DNA of 64,000 nt from Candidatus Methanoperedens sp. (GCA_026552955.1 JAPMTS010000011.1:1-64000), one strand, 5' to 3'. Numbered from the stretch's first letter, positions 20,984 to 49,128 are shown. Translations and numbers: made by a program. Notes: generated from the sequence alone by a model not told the origin.

Positions 20984-23900
20984 CTATTTGGAATGTATTA
21001 CGATGCTTCCCCCTCCAAGCTCTATAGCATCATTCCCGGTATCCGATGATCCGATCTTATTGTCATAGAGTATTTCTTCATTGGCTTTGTTCCATATCTT
21101 TATCCTGAACCTGTCAGGTGTGCCATCAATAGCTGTGAGCATGAAACCATATTCGCCCATTCCATTGATAGTACCCGTGCCTTTGTACTGCGCGCGTGTG
21201 CCAGTAACAACAAGCCATTCATATGCTGTGCTATGGAAGTTGAGATTGGCGACCTCAAACTGGAATTCAGTGACCCCGATCGGGACTTGTGCTCCTTTCT
21301 GGTATTTGGAGTTAATGTTGATGTTTGCGTGCCCTGTGAGATTCGGATATGCCATATAAGCGCCAACGGGTGAGTTAATCCAGCCACCCCCTGTAACGAA
21401 TCCAGCATTGGGGTCATAAATTACCACATACATATAAGTTGCGGATCCGGCTCCGCCGTCATCATCAGTCACCGTCAATGTGACGGTATAGATTCCTGCA
21501 GTTGTGTAAATATGGCTTCCTTTTGCCGATGTCTCTGTTACCGTACCCTGACTGGTCGTGCCGTCACCCCAGTTCCATAATGTAGTATGGGTATCCGCGG
21601 TTCCGGGATCGGTAAACGTAGCGCTTGCCGCAACTGCGGTACCTGCAGATGTCGGATTAATGGGGGCGGTGATAGGACCAACAGTGGGAGCCACATTGAT
21701 TACCGTCACTGTTGCTGTATCCGTACTGACGCCACCATTGCCATCTGAAACCTGTAAGCCCACAGTAATAGTGGCATTACCATCCGGTGGTATTATGGCA
21801 GCAGTCACACCTGGATTCTCATATATACCATCATTGTCAAGATCCCATGCGTACGTAAGGGTGTCCCCATCCGGATCACTTGATCCTGAGGCGTCAAGTG
21901 TTACTGAAGAACCTTCATTTACCGTGTATGGGCCTCCTGCTTCAGGAACTGGTGGACTATTGGGTATGAACATTGCAACAAGATTTCTATCTTCTGTCAC
22001 CATAAATTGATAGGAAGGACTTGTAGATACCTGACTGCCATCTTCAGTCCAATTCCGGAAAATATAACCATAGACCGGTTGTGCTGTAACGGTTGCTTTC
22101 TGGCCGAAAGGATATTGACCTCCACCGGCAGGTTGGGGAGTTAGACCTGAAGGCGATGTTGATACAGATATTGTATATACGGGATTCTGTCCATTATAAA
22201 AAGCTTCGACTTCTTGAGGAGTTAATGCGCGATTCCATATGCGAACTTCATCAATAGATCCATTGAGATATTTTGAGTCATCAGGACCGCCAATTGTTAA
22301 ATTATTCTTATTGGATGAAATATTGGACGTCCCATTTTTGTTATTACTGAGATTGCCATTCAAATATATCTGTAACTGGGTCCCATTATATATTCCAACC
22401 AGATGAACCCAGGTAGTATTATTAGAAGGATAATTGATAGCAGAATCCACTCTATAGTTATTACCTGAAGTTCTCTGGTTGAATCTGAAAAAGGCTTTAC
22501 CACTCGAAGCAAGGGAAAGTTCATAGCCATTTGTAGCGTCATTGGCAGCCTTTTTCACAATATATTGTGTATCTCTTCTTGCAGGTCTTACCCATGCTTC
22601 AATTGTAATATTACCTGTAATGTTAAGACGTTCTCCATTTCCTGCATCAATATAATCATTGCCATCAAAGTATAACGCACCCCCAATTTTCCCTGTCGTT
22701 GGAGTGGGACACCCGGAACCTGAACATATCCCATCATTTCTATTACCGCTCCAGTCAAGGATATCATTATCAAATTTCCACCACCCAACAAGTGAACTAT
22801 TCTGTGTATACTCAGCCACAATATTTCTATGGCCTGTCACATTGAATTGATAGGCAGGATTCGTAGATACCTGGATTCCGTTTTCAGTCCAATGCCAGAA
22901 AGAATATCCACTAACAGGTTGTGCTGTAACGGTTACTTTCTCACCGTATAGATATTCACCTGCACCTGTAGGTTGAGGAGTGAGACCTGGAGGCAATGTG
23001 GATAAGGATATAGTATATACCGGTGCATATTCAGCTACAAGAGTTCTATTTCCTGTCACTGTGAATTGATAGGTAAGGTTTGTAGATACCAGATTTCCGT
23101 TTTCAGTCCATTTCTGGAAAGTATAACCATAGACCGGTTGTGCTGTAACGGTTGCAATCTGACCGGAAAGATATTGGCCTCCACCGGCAGGTTGAGGAGT
23201 TAGACCTGAAGGCGATGTTGATACAAATATAGTATATTCCGGATTCTGGGCATACTCAGCAACAAGATTTCTATCTCGTGTAATATTGAATTGATAGGCA
23301 GAGCTTGTCGATACCAGGATTCCGTTTTCTGTCCAATTCTGGAAAGTATAACCTAAGACATTCTGTGCTGAAACGGTTAAATTATGCCCCAGAGGGTATT
23401 CACCTGCACCTTCAGGTTCAGGAGTGAGACCTGGAGGCAATGTGGATAAGGATATAGTATAAGCCGTTCCTTTTGGACGAATTCTTGCCCTGATACTTTC
23501 AATTATGGGCGTTTGTGAAGAGTCAGTTGTGCTTAACGAACATCTTAAATAAGTATAATTGTTCTCAGATTTAATACTATAATTAGCCTTTGATGTAACA
23601 TTGGACTTCACTTCATCCCATGTAGTATTATCTGTACTGACCAAAATATCCACTTTAGTTGTTGAATTATCCCATATTCCATCACATCCTGATTCATTTA
23701 ACTCTTCCCATGGGCGAATAAGTGAAGAAAGATTACGGGTTACGGTTCCTGCCAGATAATGTTCATTATTCTGTATAGAGGCAAGGTCTGAAGCTGATAA
23801 TTTACGATTAAAAAATCTTACCTCATCTATAGTTCCATTGGTGTAATCCGGTCCTGTAGTTGATTCTTCAGTATCCTTCGCCCCAATGGCCAATAAACCG

Positions 23901-25264
23901 GTGTTTCCAGTACCTGTCGAGCAGTTGATGGGGTCGGATATAGATGCTACAGGATTTACGATATCGTCTACAAACAGACTACATGTGTTTCTCTCTCTTG
24001 TATAAGCAACAAAATGCCACAATCCATCCCTTCGTTCCTGTGTATCTTTCTCTGGAATCTCCGTACCGTTTACACTTTTATTATAAACAACGCCCTGTAT
24101 TATATTATCTTTAATCTCAACTTTCCACCATGAATCCGGTTCTACAGTGGCAGTGCTGCCTTTTCTTGTTATATCCGTGTCATTATTGTCAATTCCTGGA
24201 GCCAGTTTAAGATATAATGAAATCGTAAAATCATCAGGTAACCGGAAGTCTGCATGATCAGGGAAAATAACTTTATTTTTTTGTCCGTCAAAATGAATAG
24301 CCTGCCCATATTTGCCGGCTGTATAGGGATTGGTATATGCATCATTTAAATAAAGTTCGCCCAGGGGTACATTTGAGGTTTTTTCATTGTATATCGTTGA
24401 TCTGTTTCGTTCGTATATTGTTGCTCCATCATCTTCATCGAACCTGGTGTATAATGCATAATCGGAAATTGTTTGTTCCAGTTCCGCATTACCTGTGGCT
24501 TTGACGTCTGTAGCTTGAGAAAATGTTACATTTCCGCCCCAGTTAAAGGGGCCAATTATGTCCCATGTCCTGATATCAATAATGACATTTCCGGTCAATT
24601 TATTAAGTGCTTCTTTCTTGAATTTTAATCGAATTTCACCATTATTGTCTATCCCAAAATCGTAATCATCCGGGAAAAGATATGTTACATCCTGATATAC
24701 AGTTCCGCCCTCAGTATATTCCCTGAGTGTGTCGTCATGGACGGATATATGTTCCTCCCCCGCATTGAATTCAAATCTATCATATTTAATTTTATGTTTA
24801 TCTATGTATTTATTTTTGGGTTTGTCGGATTTCAAACTATAATGAAGATCTATAAATGCGTCTGTTAGATTGATGGGTTTTTGTTTACTCTCCAATTCTG
24901 ATTTTGAATATGTTAGAGAATAACTGATCGAATTTTGTTTCAATTTAAATTTTGTCTTATATTTTGGAATACTCAGAGTAGTATCATCTACCTGGAAATC
25001 AGCCGTCGTTTCATTTTCAGAATATCGATAAGGCCAACTTCCATTGGAAATATTCAATTCATCTTTCGGTGTCCATGTACCATCCCATTTAAGAAAATTC
25101 AAATCTCCGCTTATTATTTCCCTCGACCCATCGTCGTAAGTGATTACATTATATCCATTATGATATTCCGTAGCTTGCGCCAAAGCAGGGATCCAGAGAA
25201 ACTGAATGAACAAAAGACCTATGCCAAATATAAATAATGGTCTCGAAATCGCAGGCAATAACAC
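20984..25264 (-). CDS. giant exported LamG / PKD surface protein
   Basis: 1426 residues with a signal peptide ending WIPALA|QA. Order of parts: N-terminal ~250 residues without a recognised fold; a LamG/concanavalin-like domain (about 255-500); a linker with an F5/8-like strand pattern; three ~75-residue repeats of the type YTISLSTLPPGLTPxPxGxGEY...WTENG...LVAEY; a second LamG domain (WKFDNDILDWSGNRNDG...); a fourth such repeat; two PKD domains (PVPEAGGPYTVNEGSS..., then ...LWNWGDGTTSQGTV); and a C-terminal ~135-residue domain of the post-COAP-1 type (FVTGGGWINSPVGAYMAYP, NFHSTAYEWLVVTGTRAQY). No membrane anchor is visible. Probably a secreted adhesin or matrix protein. The start codon is GTG 25262-25264. 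Confidence 0.85.
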   Translation of the reverse strand: MLLPAISRPLFIFGIGLLFIQFLWIPALAQATEYHNGYNVITYDDGSREIISGDLNFLKWDGTWTPKDELNISNGSWPYRYSENETTADFQVDDTTLSIPKYKTKFKLKQNSISYSLTYSKSELESKQKPINLTDAFIDLHYSLKSDKPKNKYIDKHKIKYDRFEFNAGEEHISVHDDTLREYTEGGTVYQDVTYLFPDDYDFGIDNNGEIRLKFKKEALNKLTGNVIIDIRTWDIIGPFNWGGNVTFSQATDVKATGNAELEQTISDYALYTRFDEDDGATIYERNRSTIYNEKTSNVPLGELYLNDAYTNPYTAGKYGQAIHFDGQKNKVIFPDHADFRLPDDFTISLYLKLAPGIDNNDTDITRKGSTATVEPDSWWKVEIKDNIIQGVVYNKSVNGTEIPEKDTQERRDGLWHFVAYTRERNTCSLFVDDIVNPVASISDPINCSTGTGNTGLLAIGAKDTEESTTGPDYTNGTIDEVRFFNRKLSASDLASIQNNEHYLAGTVTRNLSSLIRPWEELNESGCDGIWDNSTTKVDILVSTDNTTWDEVKSNVTSKANYSIKSENNYTYLRCSLSTTDSSQTPIIESIRARIRPKGTAYTISLSTLPPGLTPEPEGAGEYPLGHNLTVSAQNVLGYTFQNWTENGILVSTSSAYQFNITRDRNLVAEYAQNPEYTIFVSTSPSGLTPQPAGGGQYLSGQIATVTAQPVYGYTFQKWTENGNLVSTNLTYQFTVTGNRTLVAEYAPVYTISLSTLPPGLTPQPTGAGEYLYGEKVTVTAQPVSGYSFWHWTENGIQVSTNPAYQFNVTGHRNIVAEYTQNSSLVGWWKFDNDILDWSGNRNDGICSGSGCPTPTTGKIGGALYFDGNDYIDAGNGERLNITGNITIEAWVRPARRDTQYIVKKAANDATNGYELSLASSGKAFFRFNQRTSGNNYRVDSAINYPSNNTTWVHLVGIYNGTQLQIYLNGNLSNNKNGTSNISSNKNNLTIGGPDDSKYLNGSIDEVRIWNRALTPQEVEAFYNGQNPVYTISVSTSPSGLTPQPAGGGQYPFGQKATVTAQPVYGYIFRNWTEDGSQVSTSPSYQFMVTEDRNLVAMFIPNSPPVPEAGGPYTVNEGSSVTLDASGSSDPDGDTLTYAWDLDNDGIYENPGVTAAIIPPDGNATITVGLQVSDGNGGVSTDTATVTVINVAPTVGPITAPINPTSAGTAVAASATFTDPGTADTHTTLWNWGDGTTSQGTVTETSAKGSHIYTTAGIYTVTLTVTDDDGGAGSATYMYVVIYDPNAGFVTGGGWINSPVGAYMAYPNLTGHANININSKYQKGAQVPIGVTEFQFEVANLNFHSTAYEWLVVTGTRAQYKGTGTINGMGEYGFMLTAIDGTPDRFRIKIWNKANEEILYDNKIGSSDTGNDAIELGGGSIVIHSK

Positions 25265-36693: not shown

Positions 36694-38883
36694 ATGGGCA
36701 GACGAAAAAAAATGGTTGAACATGTCACTGAACTGATGGATAAACCAGAGTTTATCCGAAATATCGGTACAGTTGCACATATTGACCATGGAAAAACAAC
36801 ATTTTCAGATAATCTACTTGCCGGTGCAGGCATGATCTCATCAGAACTGGCTGGCGAGCAATTATTTATGGATTCTGATGAAGAAGAACAAAGACGTGGA
36901 ATTACTATTGACTCTGCAACTGTTTCAATGGTGCATAGTTATGAAGGACAGGAATATCTTATCAACCTTATCGATACACCAGGACACGTTGACTTTGGCG
37001 GCGACGTAACTCGCGCCATGAGGGCCGTGGACGGGGCAGTTGTGCTTGTTGATGCTGTCGAAGGTCCGATGCCACAGACTGAAACCGTTCTGCGTCAGGC
37101 GCTTCGTGAAAATGTAACACCGATTCTTTTCATCAACAAGGTTGACCGACTAATTAATGAGATAAAGCTTACACCTGCTGATATGCAGATGCGATTGGGG
37201 CTTGTTATTGATAAAGTCAATAAGATCGTTAAAGGCCTGAAACCGGGCGAATATGAAAGACTGAAGCTTGATCCTGCAGCCGGCAAAGTTGCATTCGGAT
37301 CCGCATTAAATAACTGGGCGATAAGCATTCCCTATATGAAAAAGACTGGCATCGGGTTTAAAGAAATAATCGAATTATGCCAGGCCGATAAGCAGAATGA
37401 ACTTGCTTTGAAATGTCCGCTTCATGTAGTAATGAATGATATGATTATAAGATTCCTGCCAAGCCCTGTTAAGGCACAACAGGAAAGAATAAAAGTCATC
37501 TGGCATGGAGATAAAGAAAGCGAGATCGGAAAATCCATGATAAACGTTGACAGGAATGGCAAGATAGCGTTAATGATAACTGATATTACCACCGACCCGC
37601 ATGCGGGTGAAATAGCAAGTGGCAGGCTTTTCTCAGGTACTCTGGAAAGGGGCAAGGAAGTTTTTATTTCAGGAATGCCAAATGCTAACAGGATACAGTC
37701 TGTGGGTATATTCATGGGTCCTGAAAGAATTGAATGTGATAATATCCCTGCCGGAAATATCGTAGCAGTAACCGGTTTAAGTGATGCGATCGTAGGTTCT
37801 ACAGCCTCAGGCGATAAGAGTATGACTCCATTTGAGAGCATAAGGCATGTCAGTGAACCTGTTATGACCGTTGCTGTTGAAGCTAAACACATGAAAGACC
37901 TGCCAAAACTTGTTGAAGTTTTAAGACAGGTCGCAAAAGAAGATCCCACCCTTAAAGTAATGATAAACCAGGAAACTGGTGAACATCTGCTTGCAGGAAT
38001 GGGTGAACTTCATCTTGAAGTAGTAGCAGGCAGGATCAAGCGTGACAAACATGTTGATATCACGACATCCAAACCGCTTGTAGTCTATAGGGAAACGATC
38101 ACCAGTCACGTCGGGCCTGTTGAAGGAAAATCCCCCAACCGCCATAACAGGTTTTATGTTGAAGTTGAACCTCTGAACCCGGCAATAATTGAACTTATCA
38201 AGAATAATGAGGTTTCAATGAGACAGGGAGAAGTGGAGCGCAGGGATACGCTGATGAAAGCTGGAATGTCTAAGGATGAAGCCAAGAGTATTGCCCATAT
38301 TTTTGAAACAAATATGTATATTGATATGACCAAAGGTATCCAGTACCTGCATGAAACAATGGAACTCATCCTGGAAGGATTTGAGGAGGTCATGAAGGCT
38401 GGACCGTTATCCCGTGAACCTGTGATGGGAGTTAAAGTGAAATTGATGGATGCAAAGCTCCATGAAGACGCTGTCCACAGGGGACCCGCACAGGTCATTC
38501 CCGCATCAAGACAGGCGATCCAGGCAGCGATGCTCATGGCCGGGGCTACCCTTCTTGAACCATTCCAGAAAGTGTTCATCCACGTCCCGCATGACCAGAT
38601 GGGCGGCGCAATGCGTGAAATGCAGGGAAGGCGAGGCTCTATTCTTGATATGCAATCAGAAGGCGACATGACCATTATCGAATCAAAAGCACCCGTTGCA
38701 CAATTGTTCGGGTTCTCCGGGGATATCCGCTCCGCTACTGAAGGCAGGGCCATGTGGAGTACTGAATTCGTAGGATTTGAACCAATCCCGGGGAATATGC
38801 TCAATGAGATCGTGATGGCTATCAGGCAAAGGAAAGGACTTAAACTCGAATTGCCAAAACCAAGTGATTTTATAAGTCCGTGA
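36694..38883 (+). CDS. fusA: translation elongation factor EF-2
   Basis: 729 residues. G domain motifs [19 protein letters not shown] and NKVDR; the diphthamide site [11 protein letters not shown], with the modifiable His at residue 595; C-terminal domain V ending [14 protein letters not shown]. Catalyses ribosomal translocation. AGAGGTTAATC precedes ATG 36694, and its own TATA-like element lies about 36655-36680, consistent with separate transcription after the inserted region. Confidence 0.96.
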
Positions 38884-38995
38884 TGCAGACCCCGAATTTA
38901 ATTTCAGGCATAATGGGACTTTCAACGGAAGGTTTAAAAACAAAAACAACAATACGAACACAAAACAATCTTCAATAAATATTAGGAGAAATATT

Positions 38996-40264
38996 ATGGC
39001 AGAAAAACCACATTTAAATTTAGCAGTTATCGGGCATATCGACCACGGGAAATCAACCCTCGTAGGAAGATTATTGTTTGAAACTGGTGCGGTACCACCA
39101 CACATCATAGAAAAGTATAGGGAAGAAGCAAAAGCCAAAGGTAAAGAATCCTTCGTCTTTGCATGGGTCATGGACTCACTCAAGGAAGAGAGGGATAGAG
39201 GTATCACGATTGATGTCGCTCACCAGCGATTTGATACCGCAAAATATTATTTTACTATAGTTGACTGCCCTGGCCACAGGGATTTCGTAAAGAACATGAT
39301 TACAGGTGCCTCACAGGCAGATGCAGCCATACTTGTATGCGCTGGCAAAGAAGGCGTCCAGTCACAAACCAAAGAACACGTATTCCTTTCAAGAACCCTT
39401 GGTATTACACAGTTGATCATAGCCATCAACAAGATGGATGAAGTCAACTATGATAAAGCAAGATTTGACGCAGTTAAAGCCGAGCTCAGCACACTTCTCA
39501 AAATGGTGGGGTATAAACCCGATGATATTAATTTCATTCCCACATCGGCTTTTAAGGGCGATAACCTTGCAAAGTTAAGCGAGAATACAAAATGGTATAC
39601 AGGACCCACATTGCTTGCGGCTCTTGACTTGTTGAAACTGCCGGAGAAACCCGTGACATTACCACTTCGCATTCCTGTCCAGGATGCTTACACTATTTCC
39701 GGTATCGGAACAGTTCCGGTGGGAAGGGTTGAGACCGGAAGGATGAAACCCGGTGATAAAATAATATTCATGCCGGCCAAAGCTGTCGGTGAAGTAAAAT
39801 CCATTGAAATGCATCACCAGGAGATCAAAGAAGCGCTTCCCGGAGACAACATCGGATGGAACGTAAGAGGTGTTGAGAAGAAAGATATCAGGCGCGGTGA
39901 CGTCTGCGGACCTACCGACAGACCCCCGGCAGTTGCAGAAGAATTCACCGCCCAGATAGTAGTATTACAGCACCCTTCAGCAATTACCATTGGTTATACG
40001 CCAGTTTTGCACTGCCACACTGCGCAGGTTGCAGGAACGATCACAGCAATTTTAAAGAAACTTGATCCAAAGACAGGCCAGACAGCTGCAGAAAATCCCG
40101 ATTTCATAAAAGCCGGGGATGCCGCTATCGTGACGATCAAACCAGCAAAACCGCTGTGTATCGAGAAAGTAAAAGAGATTCCCCAGCTCGGTCGCTTTGC
40201 GATTCGTGATATGGGAATGACAATTGCAGCTGGCATGGTCCAGGACATTAAATTGAGAATTTAA
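38996..40264 (+). CDS. tuf: translation elongation factor EF-1alpha
   Basis: 422 residues with [24 protein letters not shown] and NKMDEV (G1, G3, G4) and the archaeal C-terminal beta-barrel domains. Brings aminoacyl-tRNA to the ribosome. TTAGGAGAAAT precedes the ATG. Downstream rps10 follows after 34 bases. Confidence 0.96.
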
Positions 40265-40298
40265 AAATCTCAATTTTCACAATAAAACGGTGTAATTT

Positions 40299-40610
40299 AT
40301 GGTTCAGAAAGCAAGAATACGTTTATCTGGAACAAGTCCCATCACCCTTGATGGAATATGTTCCCAGGTAAAAGATATCGCAGTTAAGACCGGAGTAAGC
40401 ATTTGCGGCCCGGTTCCCCTGCCTACCAAGAAATTAGTTGTGCCATGCAGGAAAAGCCCTGATGGTGAAGGAAGTTCAACATGGGATCACTGGGAGATGA
40501 GAGTCCATAAGAGGCTCATTGACCTTGATGCTGATGAAAGGGCGCTGCGCCAGTTAATGCGCATACAGGTTCCCAAGGATATCAGTATTGAGATTGTTCT
40601 TACCAGTTAA
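40299..40610 (+). CDS. rps10: ribosomal protein S10 (uS10)
   Basis: 103 residues; [40 protein letters not shown] and [18 protein letters not shown]-like C-terminal motif ([17 protein letters not shown]) mark S10. Last gene of the fusA-tuf-rps10 group, followed by T tracts. Confidence 0.95.
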
Positions 40611-40631
40611 TTTTTTTCCTGTTTTTTTTAG
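40611..40631. terminator. T-tract terminator between convergent genes
   Basis: Two T runs (TTTTTTT and TTTTTTTT) follow rps10 directly with no hairpin, a common archaeal termination signal. The convergent gene at 40636 ends on the other side. Confidence 0.6.
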
Positions 40632-40635
40632 TTGA

Positions 40636-41205
40636 TTAAATCTTCCATTTGCCATCATGTTGTTTACGAAGTTCTAAATGTATTTCACCAGATACATATT
40701 TTACACTGGCAGATACCATATTCTGTGAAATATCATCTTCCCCTGGTTCAAGACTGAATATATATGGATCGTTGATATTTTTAAAATTACTTCTATATTC
40801 TTCAAGTATTTTCATGGAATCATAACCTTTCCTTTTCCAATAATCTTGAGAATTATCCGTCATCATTAGTTCCAAAGCTGAATCGTCCCCATTCGAAATA
40901 GCTTCAACTACGGCCAGAACGGATTCTTTCGGGTCAGAAAGATTATATATGAGATTCTTATGCCCGGAATCCCATTTTACTTTGCCGGGTCTCAAGAATG
41001 CCTTATATCCTTCTGAAGTATTGATTATTTCAACATCGATCATAACTGAATACTCATTTCTGAGATCTTCTTCAAGCTTAAGGTCAGGACGCTTTTCACC
41101 TAATAAATAATATAATGCTGTACTTATTACTAATAACAGAAGCAATGCCCCCAATACTGTAACTATTATTGTCCCCATCCTCTTTGTTATATCTGTCATT
41201 GGCAT
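40636..41205 (-). CDS. membrane-anchored protein with extracytoplasmic domain
   Basis: 189 residues. One N-terminal membrane helix (about 11-33, IIVTVLGALLLLLVISTALY) is followed by an alpha/beta domain of about 150 residues; its second half, with SVLAVVEAISNGDDSALELM and the final strands, resembles an NTF2-like cone, which is a guess. No family is recognised. It is divergent from the pilin-like operon and separated from it by about 120 AT-rich bases; a link in function is possible. Confidence 0.65.
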   Translation of the reverse strand: MPMTDITKRMGTIIVTVLGALLLLLVISTALYYLLGEKRPDLKLEEDLRNEYSVMIDVEIINTSEGYKAFLRPGKVKWDSGHKNLIYNLSDPKESVLAVVEAISNGDDSALELMMTDNSQDYWKRKGYDSMKILEEYRSNFKNINDPYIFSLEPGEDDISQNMVSASVKYVSGEIHLELRKQHDGKWKI

Positions 41206-41329
41206 TCCTATTATTTTTTTTTAAATATTTATCTACTTATTGTATGAAAAATTTTACATTTTAATCTTACACAATCCTTAATATATCTTAAGCTAATTAT
41301 ACCTTATCATCATACTTGTGAGTATAATA

Positions 41330-41839
41330 ATGATAAAAAAAGAGATCAATAATTGTGAAGGACTGATCAGCATAGACTACATAGTGGGTATTTCAATATT
41401 TATTCTCTCTGTCTTTTTCCTTTTCAATATACTGACAAGCATGTTCATTCCCTTCGAATCTACATCAGATGAAGTAAAAGCAATGTCTAACAGGATAGGC
41501 GCGATACTTGTGGAGAGCCAGAGTGGGCTTATAACAAATGGATTAAGTCCAAATATCATTGATCCAGTCAGAGTTTCCGAGTTCAATGAATCTCTTAATA
41601 ATCCATTGGAATTTGATGCCAAGATGGCAGAACTGGGACTTCATTCAAATGAAACAAAATATAAATTGAATATTTCTTTAAATTATATAAATGGTAGCAT
41701 TTATATGTCCGGATCCAGTCCCATGCTTTTGGGAGGGTCGCTTTCTGACCAATTCACTAATGTGGCAAAGACATCTCGCATTGTATATCTGCCATCTGAT
41801 TCCAGGATGCTTATGCTTGAGGTGAAGGTGTGGCTATGA
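41330..41839 (+). CDS. type IV pilin-like protein 1
   Basis: 169 residues from ATG 41330 (a GTG at 41318 is possible). A short charged N-terminus is followed by CEGLISIDYIVGISIFILSV: Gly, then a hydrophobic helix with an acidic residue at +5, the class III signal layout of archaeal pilins. The ectodomain is about 130 residues with NxS/T sites. First of six consecutive genes with such N-termini. TATATC at 41281-41287 is a candidate TATA box. Confidence 0.7.
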   Translation: MIKKEINNCEGLISIDYIVGISIFILSVFFLFNILTSMFIPFESTSDEVKAMSNRIGAILVESQSGLITNGLSPNIIDPVRVSEFNESLNNPLEFDAKMAELGLHSNETKYKLNISLNYINGSIYMSGSSPMLLGGSLSDQFTNVAKTSRIVYLPSDSRMLMLEVKVWL

Positions 41840-42399
41840 TCAATGATTCAAATGCACAAATATACACCCTTGAAGGAATCGCAACTGCAATACTTATGAT
41901 AGGTGTTGTAATATTCATAGTAAAAGCGGCGCCGCTTACACCCCTTACGGCATCGTATCTTCACCAGAGCGTGGAGGAACAGATAGAAACATGGGGAAAC
42001 GATTTGCTGACGGTTATGGACTATGTTCCGGAGGTTAGTTTAAATTCACAGCTCAAGCAAAGTATTATTGACTGGAAAGGACAGGAGTTTGATGGCCAGG
42101 CACAGGTTATACCTCAAACAGTAAATTTAACCGCAAGTTCTTTAAAAGAGGTCTTTGGAAATTCCGGAATAGCATACAACCTTGAGCTTTCCTTTTCCAC
42201 ACCTTCAGGAATTTCAACAAGAGCGATGTTATGGAATGGAAGACCTTCTGATAATGCGGTGATAGCAAGCAGGAAAATAATTCTCCATGATGAAGATATG
42301 AGCACGAATCCCACTCTTTCTGCGATCATACCTGATATGGACACGTTCACAAAATTTTACAATATGGTTGATGTGAGGTTAACATTATGGTGGATCTAA
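41836..42399 (+). CDS. type IV pilin-like protein 2 (DUF7288-like)
   Basis: 187 residues. ATG 41836 gives the classical ATGA overlap with the preceding stop; GTG 41830 is the alternative. The N-terminus NAQIYTLEGIATAILMIGVV, followed by LTPLTASYLHQSVEEQ, closely follows the haloarchaeal DUF7288 pattern (AQAHTLE plus hydrophobic helix plus TPLTAS). Those genes sit in archaeal pilus clusters beside a PilB/TadA ATPase, which is not seen here. Confidence 0.75.
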   Translation: MINDSNAQIYTLEGIATAILMIGVVIFIVKAAPLTPLTASYLHQSVEEQIETWGNDLLTVMDYVPEVSLNSQLKQSIIDWKGQEFDGQAQVIPQTVNLTASSLKEVFGNSGIAYNLELSFSTPSGISTRAMLWNGRPSDNAVIASRKIILHDEDMSTNPTLSAIIPDMDTFTKFYNMVDVRLTLWWI

Positions 42400-44048
42400 A
42401 ATCGAATGAAAGCGGGCAGTTGATGCTCCTTACCGGTTTATTGATCATTCTGCAGGTAATAATTTACACGACTTTACTTAACAATTTGATATTTACGAAT
42501 AACATGCCTTCAAGCGGACTTGACATATCCAAATATGATATTCGGGAAATAAGGTCATTGACTGAGGTAGATATTAAGAAGGCAGCTAACTATGCCAATA
42601 CCAGTGTTTCTGATCCTACCAACCAGACCTTGGTAGAGAATTATTTTATGAGTTACATATACAATTATTCCAATTCAGTAAATAAAATGTATTCGAACAG
42701 GGGTGCATCTGTTGAAATTTTGCTTAATAATGTGACATTCAACATGACCACAAGCAAATTAACCGCCAATAAATATTTCATAGAACGAAGAATCGAAACA
42801 TTTCCCGTTGGTTCTCTCATAATACCAATGGATGGGAACCAGACAAATATGATGAAAACATATGGGCTGATATTTAAAATTGTAGATGATACAAATGCTT
42901 CGGGACTGAGCAGTATCCGTATTCCAGTATATGAGTTATTACAGAATCCGGTAAACAGTACCGTTCCTGGTTTTTACAGTTCGATCTACACAGATAATAA
43001 TGCCTCTATCACTGTTGACAACATTGTGCAATACAGGAACTATTCAGGGGGACCTTTCGTAATAAGTAACAGTTCTATCAATGAAATTTCAAGGCAGATG
43101 ATTTTGGACGAAGCTTCAAACAAGGGCATCACGGTCCATGAATTAAAGGAACAATACACACATAATTACACGGTAAAAATGGTCGTTCCCCCCAGAGTTG
43201 CGTTTTTTGCAAGCTCAAATGTTGAACTGATGCAGCAGTATTATATCAATAGCGATGTCCCTGTTACGCAGCTTAACCAGACAGAAATAACAGGAGGAAA
43301 TCTGACACAGTTCGACATACTGACAATACCACATGAAGATATGACTGGTTTCCCTAATATCATCAATCCCATCGTAGGGTGGGTTGCAAATGGGGGAGTA
43401 ACACATATTGAATGTGCTGGAACGGATACTATGGATGATGCCATTGAAGCAAATGCAATTGCCGGGCCTGCAAAACCATGGTATGGGTTTATAGGCATCA
43501 CCAGATCAGATGAATTACCCAATGGTACAAATATCCCCTATCCCGGAATCAAGCTGCTGGACAATTCAACACTTTCATATAACAACTCTCCACCAATGCC
43601 GCTTTCCGGATTATCAGACCCGGGCGCGCCATATAATCCATTGACCCAGTCAAGTATAACAAATGGGACTTACGGTACAAACAACGGATTGACAAAGGCA
43701 TTTTCCCTTCGCAATGCCGGTGAAGTTAATCCTGCCACGAATATTCTGGGGTATGCCGTAAAATCCGATGGAACTGTCTTGAACGGGGATTATGACGATG
43801 ATGGAATCAGCGAACCGCAGCTGATGTATCTTGAAGCGCCATACGATAATGGGCTTGTTATTTATGTAGCAGGGCATAACCTGTCTGAACGCAATCCCAG
43901 TGGTGAGAGGTTAATATTTGAATCCTTTTTTGCAGCTTCGATGCGAAATCAGGAGATCACCGTCGTTTCTGCAAAAAATATAAATGTTACTATAAAATAT
44001 TCTGATGGAAAAATGAATTATTCTGATACTTTCCTCATCAACATATGA
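42387..44048 (+). CDS. type IV pilin-like protein 3 with amidotransferase-like ectodomain
   Basis: 553 residues. N-terminus NESGQLMLLTGLLIILQVII, a pilin-type helix following Gly. An ectodomain with many NxS/T sites follows. From about residue 270 a Rossmann-like segment, PPRVAFFASSNVELMQQYY, FDILTIPHEDM and WVANGGVTHIECAGTD, resembles the flavodoxin/class I glutamine-amidotransferase-like fold (DUF4350-type) with a Cys after the strand. The C-terminal part includes YDDDGISEPQLMYLEAPYDN and HNLSE. Overlaps the previous gene by 13 bases. Confidence 0.7.
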   Translation: MVDLKSNESGQLMLLTGLLIILQVIIYTTLLNNLIFTNNMPSSGLDISKYDIREIRSLTEVDIKKAANYANTSVSDPTNQTLVENYFMSYIYNYSNSVNKMYSNRGASVEILLNNVTFNMTTSKLTANKYFIERRIETFPVGSLIIPMDGNQTNMMKTYGLIFKIVDDTNASGLSSIRIPVYELLQNPVNSTVPGFYSSIYTDNNASITVDNIVQYRNYSGGPFVISNSSINEISRQMILDEASNKGITVHELKEQYTHNYTVKMVVPPRVAFFASSNVELMQQYYINSDVPVTQLNQTEITGGNLTQFDILTIPHEDMTGFPNIINPIVGWVANGGVTHIECAGTDTMDDAIEANAIAGPAKPWYGFIGITRSDELPNGTNIPYPGIKLLDNSTLSYNNSPPMPLSGLSDPGAPYNPLTQSSITNGTYGTNNGLTKAFSLRNAGEVNPATNILGYAVKSDGTVLNGDYDDDGISEPQLMYLEAPYDNGLVIYVAGHNLSERNPSGERLIFESFFAASMRNQEITVVSAKNINVTIKYSDGKMNYSDTFLINI

Positions 44049-44057
44049 TGTGAGACC

Positions 44058-45827
44058 ATGACATTTTCAAACATTTTAAAAAATGAATCTGGCGCCAGCA
44101 CTGTAATTGAGACAGTACTCCTTTTTGCCATTTCCGTTATTTTCCTTGGTATTATTTATACTTCATTCCAGGGATTGAATGATAGACAGACCGAGATAGT
44201 GATGAAGGAACAATACCTTTCAATTGGTAATGATATTGCCAATAAGATATCAGACATGACCATTTATGCAAAAGCAAGTCTTTCAGATGGGGCGACAATT
44301 AATATCCAATCTGATATTTATATGCCATTACTAATTGCTGATAATCCTTATTCAGTTAAAATGGCCACCGGTAAAATAATATTTGAGTCAACGGGCGGCC
44401 CATACGTTAAGGTAAATATTCCCATAAGCAATGATATCAATATTGCTGATAATAGTACAATATTCAGTACAGGTGATACATTTGAATTGATGTATGATTC
44501 GCAAAGTGGAGCAATCTTTTTTTCAGAGGGTGGAGTCATCCCCCCACCCGATTTTAATGCGCCCACAATTTCGTTCATATCACCCGATGAAGAAGAAATC
44601 ATCAGTAATACCACATTTATAAATGTCTCAACATGGGATGATGTAGGCGTTACTAAAGTGCAATATTATGTAGATGAAATTTATCAATACACTTCGGGGG
44701 AAGATTGGTTATGGGATACAACAACAATGTCTGATGGGACCTATAATGTAACTGCTATTGCATACGATTCAGCAGGCCATTCAAAAGCTGCGACACGGAA
44801 ATTTACATTAAACAATGGGATATCTTTTCCCCCGGCAATAACTATCATTTCTCCGACAGATAATGAATCCACTGATTTTCGAAGGCCAGTAATAAAATTC
44901 AAGATAACGGATGATATCGGGATAGATTTTGGCTCGATCATTCTTTTAGTTGATGGCGTTAACAGGATATCAAATGTGACTTTTTCAACTGTTAACACCA
45001 AATTAACCACCCTGACCTACATTCCTTCGAGTAATATGAACATCTCTGATCATAGTGTAGAAGTGCATGTTAATGATACGGATGGGACAATTCATGAAAC
45101 CGTAGCTTATTGGGATTTTACCATCGATGCCATAATAGATTCAGATAATCCCGCAGTATCGATAGATTGGCCGGGAATGGATTCTGACCTGGTGCCCGGC
45201 AGTGTGGTAAAAATGACATATACTGCCTCAGACGCAAGTTCCGGCATTGACAATATTACCCTTAATGTGACACGTAATGATGGTTTGTTCTATACTCATT
45301 TTCAACAGGTTGCAGAATATCCCATTATTATTAAGAATACCGGTTCAATAAGCTGGCCATTTGACCCTGATATTTTAATTGAGGGCAAGAATTATACCTA
45401 TAATATGAAAGTTTATGATAGAAGCGGAAAAAACAAAAGTGCCACTGCCGGGCCTTTCAAAGTCCTGTCGACAGGGCAGGCAAGTAAATTAGTTGAGGAT
45501 ACTGGCAGTGTGTCAGTTGCAGGCACTCAGGTGAATAACATCCAGATAAAGAAAAGCAGTGGCACTGTATCTCTTTCGAAAATCACTGTTATTTGGACTC
45601 CAACAAACAGTTCACAAAAAATTACACGTATTGATATTGACGGCAGTACATATTGGAATGGCAATAGTGAATCTGGGATTGTATTGACTTTAACATCACC
45701 ATATACTGTGAGGAGTTCATTTAAATCAATTGATTTGAGTTTTAATTATAGTATGTCAGGTAAAGCATTCACCATTGTTTTCCAGATGAGCGATTCAACA
45801 ACAAAGACCATTACATTTAATACTTGA
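44058..45827 (+). CDS. type IV pilin-like protein 4 with Ig-like domains
   Basis: 589 residues. Pilin-type N-terminus NESGASTVIETVLLFAISVI with Glu at +5 of the helix. A pilin-like head (to about 155) precedes three Ig-like domains of ~90-110 residues, beginning near PTISFISPDEEEI, PAITIISPTDNES and PAVSIDWPGMDSD, as in archaeal and bacterial cell-surface proteins. A final beta-rich domain follows. The length is extreme for a pilin, suggesting a tip or adhesive minor subunit. Confidence 0.7.
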   Translation: MTFSNILKNESGASTVIETVLLFAISVIFLGIIYTSFQGLNDRQTEIVMKEQYLSIGNDIANKISDMTIYAKASLSDGATINIQSDIYMPLLIADNPYSVKMATGKIIFESTGGPYVKVNIPISNDINIADNSTIFSTGDTFELMYDSQSGAIFFSEGGVIPPPDFNAPTISFISPDEEEIISNTTFINVSTWDDVGVTKVQYYVDEIYQYTSGEDWLWDTTTMSDGTYNVTAIAYDSAGHSKAATRKFTLNNGISFPPAITIISPTDNESTDFRRPVIKFKITDDIGIDFGSIILLVDGVNRISNVTFSTVNTKLTTLTYIPSSNMNISDHSVEVHVNDTDGTIHETVAYWDFTIDAIIDSDNPAVSIDWPGMDSDLVPGSVVKMTYTASDASSGIDNITLNVTRNDGLFYTHFQQVAEYPIIIKNTGSISWPFDPDILIEGKNYTYNMKVYDRSGKNKSATAGPFKVLSTGQASKLVEDTGSVSVAGTQVNNIQIKKSSGTVSLSKITVIWTPTNSSQKITRIDIDGSTYWNGNSESGIVLTLTSPYTVRSSFKSIDLSFNYSMSGKAFTIVFQMSDSTTKTITFNT

Positions 45828-46546
45828 TGAATATGAGAAATTTTATAAGATCAGAACGGGCGGTTTCAGAGGCGTTAAGTTTCCTTATGATGATGGGACT
45901 ATTACTGGCCTCTGGTGCCGGGATCTTCATAGTCGGGAAACCTTTGATCGAAAATTCACAAAGATCTGTTCATTTCCTGGAGATGGATCAGAGCTTTGCG
46001 CTCTTAGCCCAGAACCTGGATAAGGTCGGGTATGACCGCGGGCCTTTGAGGGTAACTGAATTGAAAGAAAAAGACGGGACGATATCAATAGTCCGGGAAA
46101 GCATGATAACCATTGATGGAATACCTTTTTCAATGGGTTCTCTTGAATATACATATGAGAATAAAACTATTGCTTATGAAAATGGCGGCCTGTGGACAAA
46201 ATACTCAAATGGCGCCGTAATAATGAAAGGAAAACCAAGAATTTCCCTGGGAAATGTTACGACCATACCCATTATTGAACTTATGGGGGATGCTTCCCTC
46301 GGCGGAGAAGGACTATTCAGGGTGAGTGCAAAGGGCTATTCATCAACATTCACTACTATAACGCCTGCAGGCGGCACGATTCAATTAGTTATCAAGAGTA
46401 ACTATTACAGGGGCTGGGCAAGTTATCTTTCCGATGAGGGCGCCTTGGATATAAGTCTTGATGATGCAAACCAGACAGTCTATTCCAATATTACGGCAAA
46501 TACATTGAATATCTATCAAAATCAGGTTCTCATTAAAATATTGTGA
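45827..46546 (+). CDS. type IV pilin-like protein 5 (DUF7289-like)
   Basis: 239 residues from ATG 45827, one base overlapping the previous stop (TGATG). N-terminus RSERAVSEALSFLMMMGLLL, close to the archaeal DUF7289/archaellin-like pattern (ravSe followed by a hydrophobic helix). The ectodomain is beta-rich, with GNVTTIPIIELMGDASLGGE and SNYYRGWASYLSDEGALD. The last motif recurs in the next gene as SDYYKAWKKYIEERTEAD, so the two are paralogues. Confidence 0.72.
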   Translation: MNMRNFIRSERAVSEALSFLMMMGLLLASGAGIFIVGKPLIENSQRSVHFLEMDQSFALLAQNLDKVGYDRGPLRVTELKEKDGTISIVRESMITIDGIPFSMGSLEYTYENKTIAYENGGLWTKYSNGAVIMKGKPRISLGNVTTIPIIELMGDASLGGEGLFRVSAKGYSSTFTTITPAGGTIQLVIKSNYYRGWASYLSDEGALDISLDDANQTVYSNITANTLNIYQNQVLIKIL

Positions 46547-46549
46547 GTT

Positions 46550-47908
46550 ATGAATACATCAAATATCAAGAGTTTCAAATCCGAAGATGCAGTTTCCGAG
46601 GTAATTGGTTATTCCCTCTTATTGGCGATTCTAGTAGTTTCGGTGGCATTTACCGTTGTTCTTTCCTATCCTGAACTTGCATATATGAAAGAATCTTCTT
46701 ATGATGAAATCGCATCCCAATCATTATCTGTATTTGCTTCAAAGAACAGTATGGCGGCATTTGGTATGTCACCCTCCCAACTCACGAGGATCGAACTCAA
46801 TGGCGCAACTTTGATCGCGAGAAATGATTCAAACAACTGGATTAAAATTGAGGTGATAAATTCATCCGGATATTCTTTAGTAATTCTAAATCAGTCATTT
46901 GGCAGTGTAGATTACAAATTTGGCGACACTCTGATCTCTTATGAAGGAGGAGGATTGTTCCGAAAATATCATTCGAATGATTCTTTGATGATCTCTCCCC
47001 CACAGTTCCATTATAACGGTGAAACACTTACTCTTCCTCTGATCATTGTGAATAATTCAGTATCAACAGGAGGAAAAGGAGTAGTCAATATTTATTCCAA
47101 ATCCGCTAACCTGCCTGTTACTATCTACCCCAATCTGACATCAGATCAAAAGCTGGTGAATCCATTAAGCAACAAGCAAATAAAAATCAGGTTAAAAAGT
47201 GATTACTACAAAGCATGGAAAAAATATATAGAGGAGAGAACAGAAGCAGATACTTTGGTAAATGACGTTACACATGAAGTCGTGGTCTCGCTTAATTCGA
47301 AAACTTCTGATGAGTTTTCGAACTTAGTGATGCCGATTGAAATAATGGGCATGAATTATACAAATACTACTCCGTTGAACAAATTTGCTTTTGATTTGAG
47401 AAATGTTGACAATAACTTGAATATGATTATGCGGGCGCCTGATCCTGATTCAGATGATTTTATATTACAAATACAAAAAAGAGGAGGAATGGGTACAACA
47501 GGCGTGGATATAACAGTAACTTACATGGATGAGTCATGGAAGTCGGAAACTGAAGCATTGATTTGGGGAAGTAATGCGACTATTGATCTACTGAATGTAT
47601 CTTCGATGGCATATTATATATCTTCAACGGCATCAACAACATGGCTCAACGAAACTCCCCCATTTAATGGAACATACGACAATGCAGGAAATGATGGTCC
47701 GGTAAATCTCAGCGTAATTATTCAGCATTATATGAAAAAATTAAGTGAGGATGGTTCTTTTAGCCTATATGTCGGAGAAAAAACTCCGGTAAAATGGATG
47801 GGGTTCACAGAAAGCGGATCAAGTTATGTTCTTGATTATGATATAAAACCACCCCGACTCACCTATTTGCATATCGTACAACATGATGTAGATATTGGGT
47901 TCAGCTAA
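46550..47908 (+). CDS. type IV pilin-like protein 6 (DUF7289-like)
   Basis: 452 residues. N-terminus KSEDAVSEVIGYSLLLAILV, again Glu at +5. Its first 230 residues parallel the preceding protein (SYEGGGLFRKY against AYENGGLWTKY; LKSDYYKAWKKYIEE against IKSNYYRGWASYLSD). The extra C-terminal ~200 residues form a second beta-rich domain with no family recognised. Last gene of the cluster, convergent with rpl11. Confidence 0.72.
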   Translation: MNTSNIKSFKSEDAVSEVIGYSLLLAILVVSVAFTVVLSYPELAYMKESSYDEIASQSLSVFASKNSMAAFGMSPSQLTRIELNGATLIARNDSNNWIKIEVINSSGYSLVILNQSFGSVDYKFGDTLISYEGGGLFRKYHSNDSLMISPPQFHYNGETLTLPLIIVNNSVSTGGKGVVNIYSKSANLPVTIYPNLTSDQKLVNPLSNKQIKIRLKSDYYKAWKKYIEERTEADTLVNDVTHEVVVSLNSKTSDEFSNLVMPIEIMGMNYTNTTPLNKFAFDLRNVDNNLNMIMRAPDPDSDDFILQIQKRGGMGTTGVDITVTYMDESWKSETEALIWGSNATIDLLNVSSMAYYISSTASTTWLNETPPFNGTYDNAGNDGPVNLSVIIQHYMKKLSEDGSFSLYVGEKTPVKWMGFTESGSSYVLDYDIKPPRLTYLHIVQHDVDIGFS

Positions 47909-47962
47909 ACGAAAAAACAATAGTATTTCGATATCCAGATCAAGTAATAAAGAACAAAAAAA

Positions 47963-48445
47963 TCATTTCGGCTCGGAGAATTCCGAGTCGAATTTACCGC
48001 TATTTATGGCCGCTATTGCTTCCTTGGGTTTTAATCCTTCAAAGGTTACACCCAGGGGAACACATGAACCCACGATCTCTTTTACTGAACCTTTTAATGA
48101 TTTTGCCAGAGTATCGCTCTGTTTCATCTTAGCGATCTTTATGGCCTGTTTTGCCGTGATATTGCCAACAGTTTGAGTATTCGGTGTACCTGAACCCTTT
48201 TCGATGCCAGCCTCTTTTATTATGAGCGCCGATGTCGGGGGAGTTCCCACAGTTATTGTGAATTGTTTCTTATCATCAATAATTACTTTGATAGGTACCT
48301 GCATTCCCTTGAAAGCAGCTGTCTGTTCATTTATCTTATCTATTATTGCCTTTACATTTACGCCAAGCGGCCCTAGTGAAGGACCCAATGGCGGACCTGC
48401 GGATGCTGAACCGCCGGAAACCAATGCTTCTACAACGCTAACCAT
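47963..48445 (-). CDS. rpl11: ribosomal protein L11 (uL11)
   Basis: 160 residues: VEALVSGGSASAGPPLGPSL at the N-terminus, the rRNA-binding C-terminal domain after KGSGTPNTQTVGNITAKQAI, and a short acidic tail. Part of the GTPase-associated centre. In many archaea L1, L10 and L12 follow; here the next downstream DNA is the convergent pilin-like operon, so that set is elsewhere. Confidence 0.95.
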   Translation of the reverse strand: MVSVVEALVSGGSASAGPPLGPSLGPLGVNVKAIIDKINEQTAAFKGMQVPIKVIIDDKKQFTITVGTPPTSALIIKEAGIEKGSGTPNTQTVGNITAKQAIKIAKMKQSDTLAKSLKGSVKEIVGSCVPLGVTFEGLKPKEAIAAINSGKFDSEFSEPK

Positions 48446-48466
48446 TTTTACTATCTCCTGTTATTA

Positions 48467-48934
48467 TTATTTCTCTTCTTCTTCTCGTTTCAATATGCGA
48501 ACATTATCACCGCGAACTGTTACAGGGATGGGGACCATCGCCTCGAACAATTCAACCGTAATCTCTTCATGAGTTGAATCAATCCTTTTAACTCTTGCTT
48601 TTTCTCCCTTGAAGGGACCGGATATCAGTTCCACAATACTTCCTTCGGTAATTCCCGTAACTGATAGTTTGGGGATAAGGAAATGTGAAATTTCCTCAAA
48701 ACTGGATTGGCCTTTGATCATTGCCCTGGCATGGGGAACATTCTGAATGACCTCATCTACCGCTTCCGGACTTGCCGCTTCCACAAGAACATAGCCTTTT
48801 AATTCATCAGGGGCAAGGACTGCATGAACTCCCAGATGTTCTTTTTTGGCAACTTTCTCTATAAGATTCGCCACCGTCCGTTCCTGATTCGCTGTTGTCT
48901 TGATAACAAATATGGCGGCAGCTTCCTCGTTCAT
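48467..48934 (-). CDS. spt5: transcription elongation factor Spt5 (NusG family)
   Basis: 155 residues from ATG 48932-48934, which overlaps the secE stop as ATGA; an ATG 9 bases upstream is the alternative. NGN domain IFVIKTTANQERTVANLIEK and KOW domain ISGPFKGEKARVKRID. Binds the polymerase clamp and raises processivity. Confidence 0.93.
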   Translation of the reverse strand: MNEEAAAIFVIKTTANQERTVANLIEKVAKKEHLGVHAVLAPDELKGYVLVEAASPEAVDEVIQNVPHARAMIKGQSSFEEISHFLIPKLSVTGITEGSIVELISGPFKGEKARVKRIDSTHEEITVELFEAMVPIPVTVRGDNVRILKREEEEK

Positions 48935-49128
48935 GTAAACCATCCCGGCATTACTGTTATTAAAATATAAATGATAAAACCTATGAATCCTACCAAAAGT
49001 ATTCCTGCACCTGCTACTTTTGCAATCACTGAAAATTCCTCTTTTGAGGGTTTCCTGGTGAGCTTGAGCACCCTGATATATTCACTCAATTTCAGAGAAA
49101 TATTCCCAATTTCTTTATCTTCGAACAA
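48931..49128 (-). CDS. secE: preprotein translocase subunit SecE (Sec61 gamma)
   Basis: 65 residues: an amphipathic N-terminal helix LSEYIRVLKLTRKPSKEEF then one membrane helix, the usual archaeal SecE layout. The only in-frame start is TTG 49126-49128; a stop lies three codons upstream. The secE-spt5-rpl11 order is conserved in archaea. Confidence 0.88.
   Translation of the reverse strand: MFEDKEIGNISLKLSEYIRVLKLTRKPSKEEFSVIAKVAGAGILLVGFIGFIIYILITVMPGWFT

Follow-up and report, generated by a model that had tools for sequence, protein, structure and literature searches.

A six-gene pilin operon with modular subunits in Candidatus Methanoperedens occupies the chromosomal slot of a shorter version kept by close relatives

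The window analyzed here, a stretch of 64,000 nucleotides from Candidatus Methanoperedens sp. (GCA_026552955.1, JAPMTS010000011.1:1-64000), belongs to a 2.48-Mb genome in 54 contigs that is 95% complete. Six plus-strand open reading frames follow one another within it, with neighbors either overlapping by 4 to 13 nt or separated by 3 to 9 nt. A preliminary description had read positions 41318 to 47908 as six overlapping or nearly abutting pilin-like genes, and the open reading frames, Pfam matches, and conserved residues confirmed this. Four of the genes had strong curated Pfam matches: pilin 1 to DUF7287 (41318 to 41839, 173 amino acids [aa]; E = 3.7e-23; predicted cleavage CEG/LISIDY, with Asp at +5), pilin 2 to DUF7288 (41830 to 42399, 189 aa; E = 1.7e-40; predicted cleavage SNA/QIYTLEG), and both pilin 5 (45824 to 46546, 240 aa; E = 2.6e-19; predicted cleavage ERA/VSEALS) and pilin 6 (46550 to 47908, 452 aa; E = 3.9e-22; predicted cleavage EDA/VSEVIG) to DUF7289. 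The C terminus of pilin 6 also resembles DUF7308, at a score under the curated cutoff (E = 2.5e-5). A fifth assignment, DUF7266 at the N terminus of pilin 4 (44058 to 45827, 589 aa), was marginal, just over the cutoff at 29.3 versus 27.6 bits (E = 8e-7); this protein also carries Ig-like repeats (Big_7/Big_13), with Big_7 matching in three stretches (E = 2e-11).

The remaining gene, encoding the 553-aa pilin 3 (42387 to 44048; predicted cleavage ESG/QLMLL), had no Pfam match and was placed by position as a long form of DUF7261. Long forms of pilin 3 were found by profile search, and DUF7261 was matched at the N terminus by shorter orthologues and by two long forms from Archaeoglobi; one of these matches exceeded the curated cutoff, and the rest were weak. 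The preliminary description credited the whole cluster with very large ectodomains, which held for three proteins (553, 589, and 452 aa) but not for the other three (173, 189, and 240 aa).

Signal type was read from conserved residues in family alignments of about 60 homologues each (42 for pilin 6). Wherever an aligned sequence had a residue at −1 of the predicted cleavage site, it was Gly or Ala (40 to 61 sequences per family), and a hydrophobic helix followed the site. Gln occupied +1 in 57 of 61 DUF7287, 61 of 61 DUF7288, and 59 of 59 pilin 3 homologues with a residue at that position, and Val was found at +1 in most aligned rows of the last three families. These N termini look like class III (prepilin) signals rather than ordinary Sec signals, as had been proposed. 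A second proposal, that all six proteins carry an acidic residue near +5, proved mostly wrong. Only the DUF7287 protein has one exactly at +5, an Asp conserved in its family; the acidic residue lies at +6 in DUF7288 (Glu in 63 of 63) and in the DUF7266 protein of the window, at +3 in both DUF7289 proteins, and nowhere near +5 in the 553-aa pilin 3.

The ectodomain of pilin 3 had no match in Pfam or PDB profile searches, and its assignment comes from structure prediction. AlphaFold2 models of the whole protein (pLDDT 70, pTM 0.63) and of residues 250 to 553 alone (pLDDT 65, pTM 0.68) both contained an alpha/beta domain, and the best solved Foldseek matches were to class I glutamine amidotransferase-like proteins, ThuA-like proteins, the Pdx2 glutaminase, and GH42 beta-galactosidases, with E values of 1e-7 to 1e-4 and a probability of 1.0 for the domain-only model. 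At the moderate confidence of these models, the ectodomain is predicted to have a class I glutamine amidotransferase (GATase1)/ThuA-like fold spanning approximately residues 269 to 520 (43191 to 43946, plus strand). Judged by topology in the predicted model, C343 follows a strand (residues 338 to 342) and precedes a helix (347 to 355), the position of a nucleophile elbow. This cysteine was invariant in 17 sequences, as were H316, D350, E354, and W365; H497 was kept in 16 of the 17, and residue 501 was variable. No sequence profile matched the ectodomain, so it is at most a possible enzyme. Relatives of pilin 3 in named genomes came from Methanoperedens metagenome-assembled genomes (82% identity, FeB_1), ANME-2 cluster archaea, Ferroglobus, and Geoglobus. 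An association of long forms with iron reduction, as in FeB_1, Ferroglobus, and Geoglobus, was considered and set aside, as most Methanoperedens have the short form only.

Compared with the 553 and 589 aa of the window proteins, the third and fourth pilins of most Methanoperedens and Methanosarcinaceae are approximately 250 to 300 and 155 to 160 aa long, and the pilin 4 counterparts in short cassettes are mostly 154 to 160 aa, reaching 181 aa at most. In two Archaeoglobi relatives (L076 and L087) it is the third pilin, not the fourth, that carries an Ig-like repeat, which suggests mobility of Ig modules among the cassette's pilins. Three ANME-2 loci (L125, L126, and L127) encode a protein of 620 to 675 aa in which a DUF7288-like start precedes the same amidotransferase-like ectodomain, so this module appears to move between pilin families. 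These are additional pilin loci of the ANME-2 relatives, with genes in the order DUF7289-DUF7266-DUF7287, seen whole in L125 and L127. Elsewhere in the window are a 1,426-aa surface-type protein with laminin-G-like, InlB-repeat, and PKD domains (20984 to 25264, minus strand) and an 816-aa NosD/right-handed beta-helix protein (2034 to 4484, plus strand).

The six-gene layout itself is already known biology. DUF7288 was present in 262 of 394 sampled genomes of the phylum, and the order DUF7287-DUF7288-[DUF7261]-DUF7266-DUF7289 was fixed across approximately 50 related loci. The preliminary characterization of the ectodomains as unusual applies to the two genes with added modules, within a layout that is ordinary in the phylum. 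Its attribution of the genes to a DUF7288/DUF7289-type pilus cluster was sound: the cassette is a conserved set of pilins with class III-type signals that includes a DUF7289 minor pilin, and corresponds to the pilin set of the PilB4-type euryarchaeal type IV pilus (clade 2, exemplified by the Haloferax HVO_1160 locus in Fig. 4B of Makarova et al. 2016, PMC4858521). We infer that DUF7289 corresponds to arCOG02911. In one proposal, PilB4/PilC4 build a pilus-like structure from two pilins of relatively large size (PMC4371748).

The cassette occupies a slot between rps10 and rpl11. Upstream, the order EF-2, EF-1A, rps10 (36694 to 40610, plus strand) was identical in the window and in G435, G436, G434, G458, G457, G439, and G337; downstream lie rpl11 and spt5/nusG (47963 to 48943, minus strand). 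A long cassette fills this slot in the window species and G435, and a short cassette fills exactly the same slot in G436, G434, and G458. BLASTN against these last three genomes gave approximately 88% identity up to positions 40617 to 40638 and 89% from positions 47955 to 47963, with no DNA similarity between the flanks, while the match to G435 was unbroken at 87%. In a tree of EF-2 plus EF-1A, the window species and G435 fell beside G436, G434, and G458. The whole rps10-rpl11 interval (40639 to 47954) differs from its counterpart in sister species: the entire long operon has replaced the short version retained there by close relatives.

Beside the long cassette is a divergently transcribed gene (40636 to 41205, minus strand) for a 189-aa protein with one N-terminal membrane helix, separated from pilin 1 by an AT-rich intergenic region (41206 to 41317) that is alignable between six genomes and is probably a divergent promoter region. 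Homologues of the divergent membrane protein (186 to 189 aa, 41 to 89% identical) were found beside the long cassette in all six Methanoperedens genomes carrying one, and none was seen beside a short cassette except in G455, which has both cassettes. It had no Pfam match over the cutoff; weak matches to TMEM131, ERGIC, and FliL fell under it and were discarded. Across 31 genomes of the genus, the long third pilin occurred in these six, the other matches were short, and one genome had neither form.

In a cassette tree, the long lineage grouped with ANME-2 (100/100) and the short lineage with Methanosarcinaceae, well separated from each other. An approximately unbiased (AU) test rejected grouping by shared slot (p = 6e-6), for a group named after the tree had been seen. 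The long and short cassettes are ancient, distinct lineages. GC content did not mark the long cassette as foreign (0.386, versus 0.387 for the short cassette of G436), and no viral contig relatives were found that would link it to mobile elements.

An ancestor that held both cassettes, with each species losing one or the other, would produce the same pattern without any new gain of the long form. This is possible, if somewhat doubtful. In locus L118 of G455 the short and long cassettes lie back to back around the gene for the divergent membrane protein, and G441 has the long cassette only, beside a KaiC-like gene and a large open reading frame as in G455. Against such sorting, the five species checked on both sides of the slot have exactly one cassette each, with sharp boundaries, and in the outgroup species G439, G457, and G337 it is the short cassette that follows rps10. 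The arrangement in G455 by itself is compatible with acquisition from elsewhere as well as with the sorting of two old copies.

Whole-genome searches with PF00437 and PF00482 placed no ATPase or platform gene in the window or its contig (contig 40). In other lineages a motor does adjoin the cassette: an ATPase-TadC pair was found next to it in 10 loci, haloarchaeal except for one Archaeoglobi-like locus, L077 (L068 to L070, L074, L075, L077, L079, L080, L083, and L084), and an ATPase in L085. Neither ATPase nor TadC lay next to the cassette in the Methanosarcinales loci compared. In the PilB4 clade, motor and pilins can be encoded apart, and motor modules and pilin sets are exchangeable (Makarova et al. 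2016, PMC4858521), so the absence of a motor in cis does not exclude membership of the PilB4 type.

Counting PF00437 matches above 80 bits, the genome encodes four ATPases, one belonging to the archaellum (contig 10) and the others located on contigs 48, 46, and 28. A fifth, weak match on contig 1 lies in an open reading frame with a start unlike that of a pilus ATPase. The preliminary description had proposed that the pilins borrow a machine from elsewhere, and a search for a pilus ATPase in the rest of the genome, which it had also suggested, lends support to that idea by recovering three nonarchaellum ATPase/TadC modules, of which that on contig 48 is closest to cassette-linked ATPases. The contig 48 module (MinD-ATPase771-TadC652) has no pilin genes alongside, and modules of this type were present in all five other Methanoperedens genomes examined. 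In a quick tree of 75 ATPases, the contig 48 enzyme joined the cassette-adjacent ATPase of L077 and then the linked haloarchaeal clade (SH-aLRT 91 to 92), a moderately supported placement that would make it a member of the cassette-linked clade. MinD also adjoins the same long cassette in the ANME-2 relatives L057, L058, and L123. Together, this phylogeny and context make the contig 48 module the likely motor of the six-pilin set.

Use of the contig 46 or contig 28 motor instead, or of several motors shared with PilA-type filaments into which the six pilins would mix, is unlikely. The exchangeability of motors and pilin sets described above would allow it, a separate PilA-type pilin gene is present on contig 5, and the contig 46 module adjoins DUF7289-like genes, its ATPase grouping with others that do so. 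The ATPase tree nevertheless puts the contig 48 enzyme, not that of contig 46 or 28, nearest the cassette-linked ATPases, and the contig 48 module lacks adjoining pilins of its own. Contig 28 (L009) encodes a 784-aa ATPase and a 647-aa TadC-like protein, also with no adjoining pilins; this TadC-like protein is not reached by the Pfam T2SSF model in its own genome. Beside the contig 46 ATPase/TadC module is another modular pilin candidate, an 804-aa protein with a pilin-like N terminus and an NHL/SMP-30 beta-propeller-like region (L008:3465-5879). No prepilin peptidase (PF01478 or PF06847) was matched in the 95%-complete assembly; among 31 Methanoperedens genomes, 24 have a PF01478 match.

The GspH-I-J-K tip complex of secretion pseudopili is a multipilin set in which one large subunit lacks an acidic residue near +5. 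The window cassette recalls it, with one such large subunit of its own and no obvious small PilA-type major pilin among the six (the smallest has 173 aa). GspK has also been described as modular (PMC8179133). In place of an extended adhesive filament, a short pseudopilus with a large-domain tip that drives exoproteins across the S-layer is nonetheless improbable. Archaea have no outer membrane secretin for it to serve. In haloarchaea, moreover, ATPase/TadC systems whose pilin sets are related to this one produce adhesive filaments (Makarova et al. 2016, PMC4858521, citing work in H. salinarum).

We consider it probable that the window encodes a PilB4-type pilin cassette, assembled in trans into the tip or priming complex of an adhesive pilus, with modules that are exchanged as a block. 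In such a system the six proteins would be inserted in the membrane, cut at the conserved Gly or Ala by a prepilin peptidase, and polymerized by an ATPase/TadC motor from another locus, for which the MinD-ATPase-TadC module of contig 48 is the best candidate. The resulting assembly would be the pilus tip or priming complex, perhaps with the shaft as well. In pilins 3 and 4, a small pilin part would carry the amidotransferase/ThuA-like domain and the Ig-like repeats, respectively, outside the cell, where the displayed modules could bind a surface, a polymer, or a partner cell. Placement of the large modules at the tip is proposed by analogy with bacterial modular pilins, in which such modules act as tip adhesins (PMC8179133), and adhesion is the favored function. 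The long cassette, together with its own divergent membrane protein, would have replaced the short cassette in the ancestor of the window species and its sister, a swap that would change the displayed modules as one block while the motor stays.

A more ambitious version of this proposal is quite unlikely to hold in all its parts. It would have pilin 3 display a functional, cysteine-dependent amidotransferase-like domain, for example one that modifies glycans or peptides, at the pilus tip; exchange of long and short cassettes respecify the surface, mineral, or syntrophic partner; and the long cassette be shared with ANME-2 through horizontal exchange or ancient descent.

Little is understood of how anaerobic methanotrophs attach themselves to partners and to metal oxides, and the literature searched yielded almost no information about their type IV pili. 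Exchangeable modular pilins at a fixed locus would provide named genes for attachment specificity, and would carry the bacterial concept of modular pilins over to archaea, with a module that may be enzyme-like. The window operon is of a known six-gene pilus-subunit kind; its novelty lies in the modular pilins and in the clean replacement of one operon by another, neither of which was found described in the literature searched.

Comparison with known systems separates the ordinary from the distinctive features of this locus. PilB4-type loci share with it a multipilin set that includes a duplicated pilin of variable length, along with related ATPase/TadC proteins, and the haloarchaeal loci compared have identical DUF families in identical order after ATPase-TadC. 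The window cassette differs in having no motor in cis, large extra domains on pilins 3 and 4, and an extra divergent membrane protein, and in being swapped as a block. With the class I glutamine amidotransferase-like superfamily (ThuA-like proteins, Pdx2, and the GH42 middle domain), the pilin 3 domain shares the predicted fold and a cysteine between strand and helix at the elbow, but it has no detectable sequence similarity to these proteins and is predicted to be displayed at the surface on a pilin. Bacterial modular pilins, such as Streptococcus sanguinis PilB with its vWA module (PMC8179133), similarly combine a small pilin module with a bulky functional one, which probably sits at the tip. 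In contrast to these, the window proteins have an archaeal class III-type signal, one carries a predicted amidotransferase/ThuA-like module, and several modular pilins are encoded inside one conserved six-gene operon.
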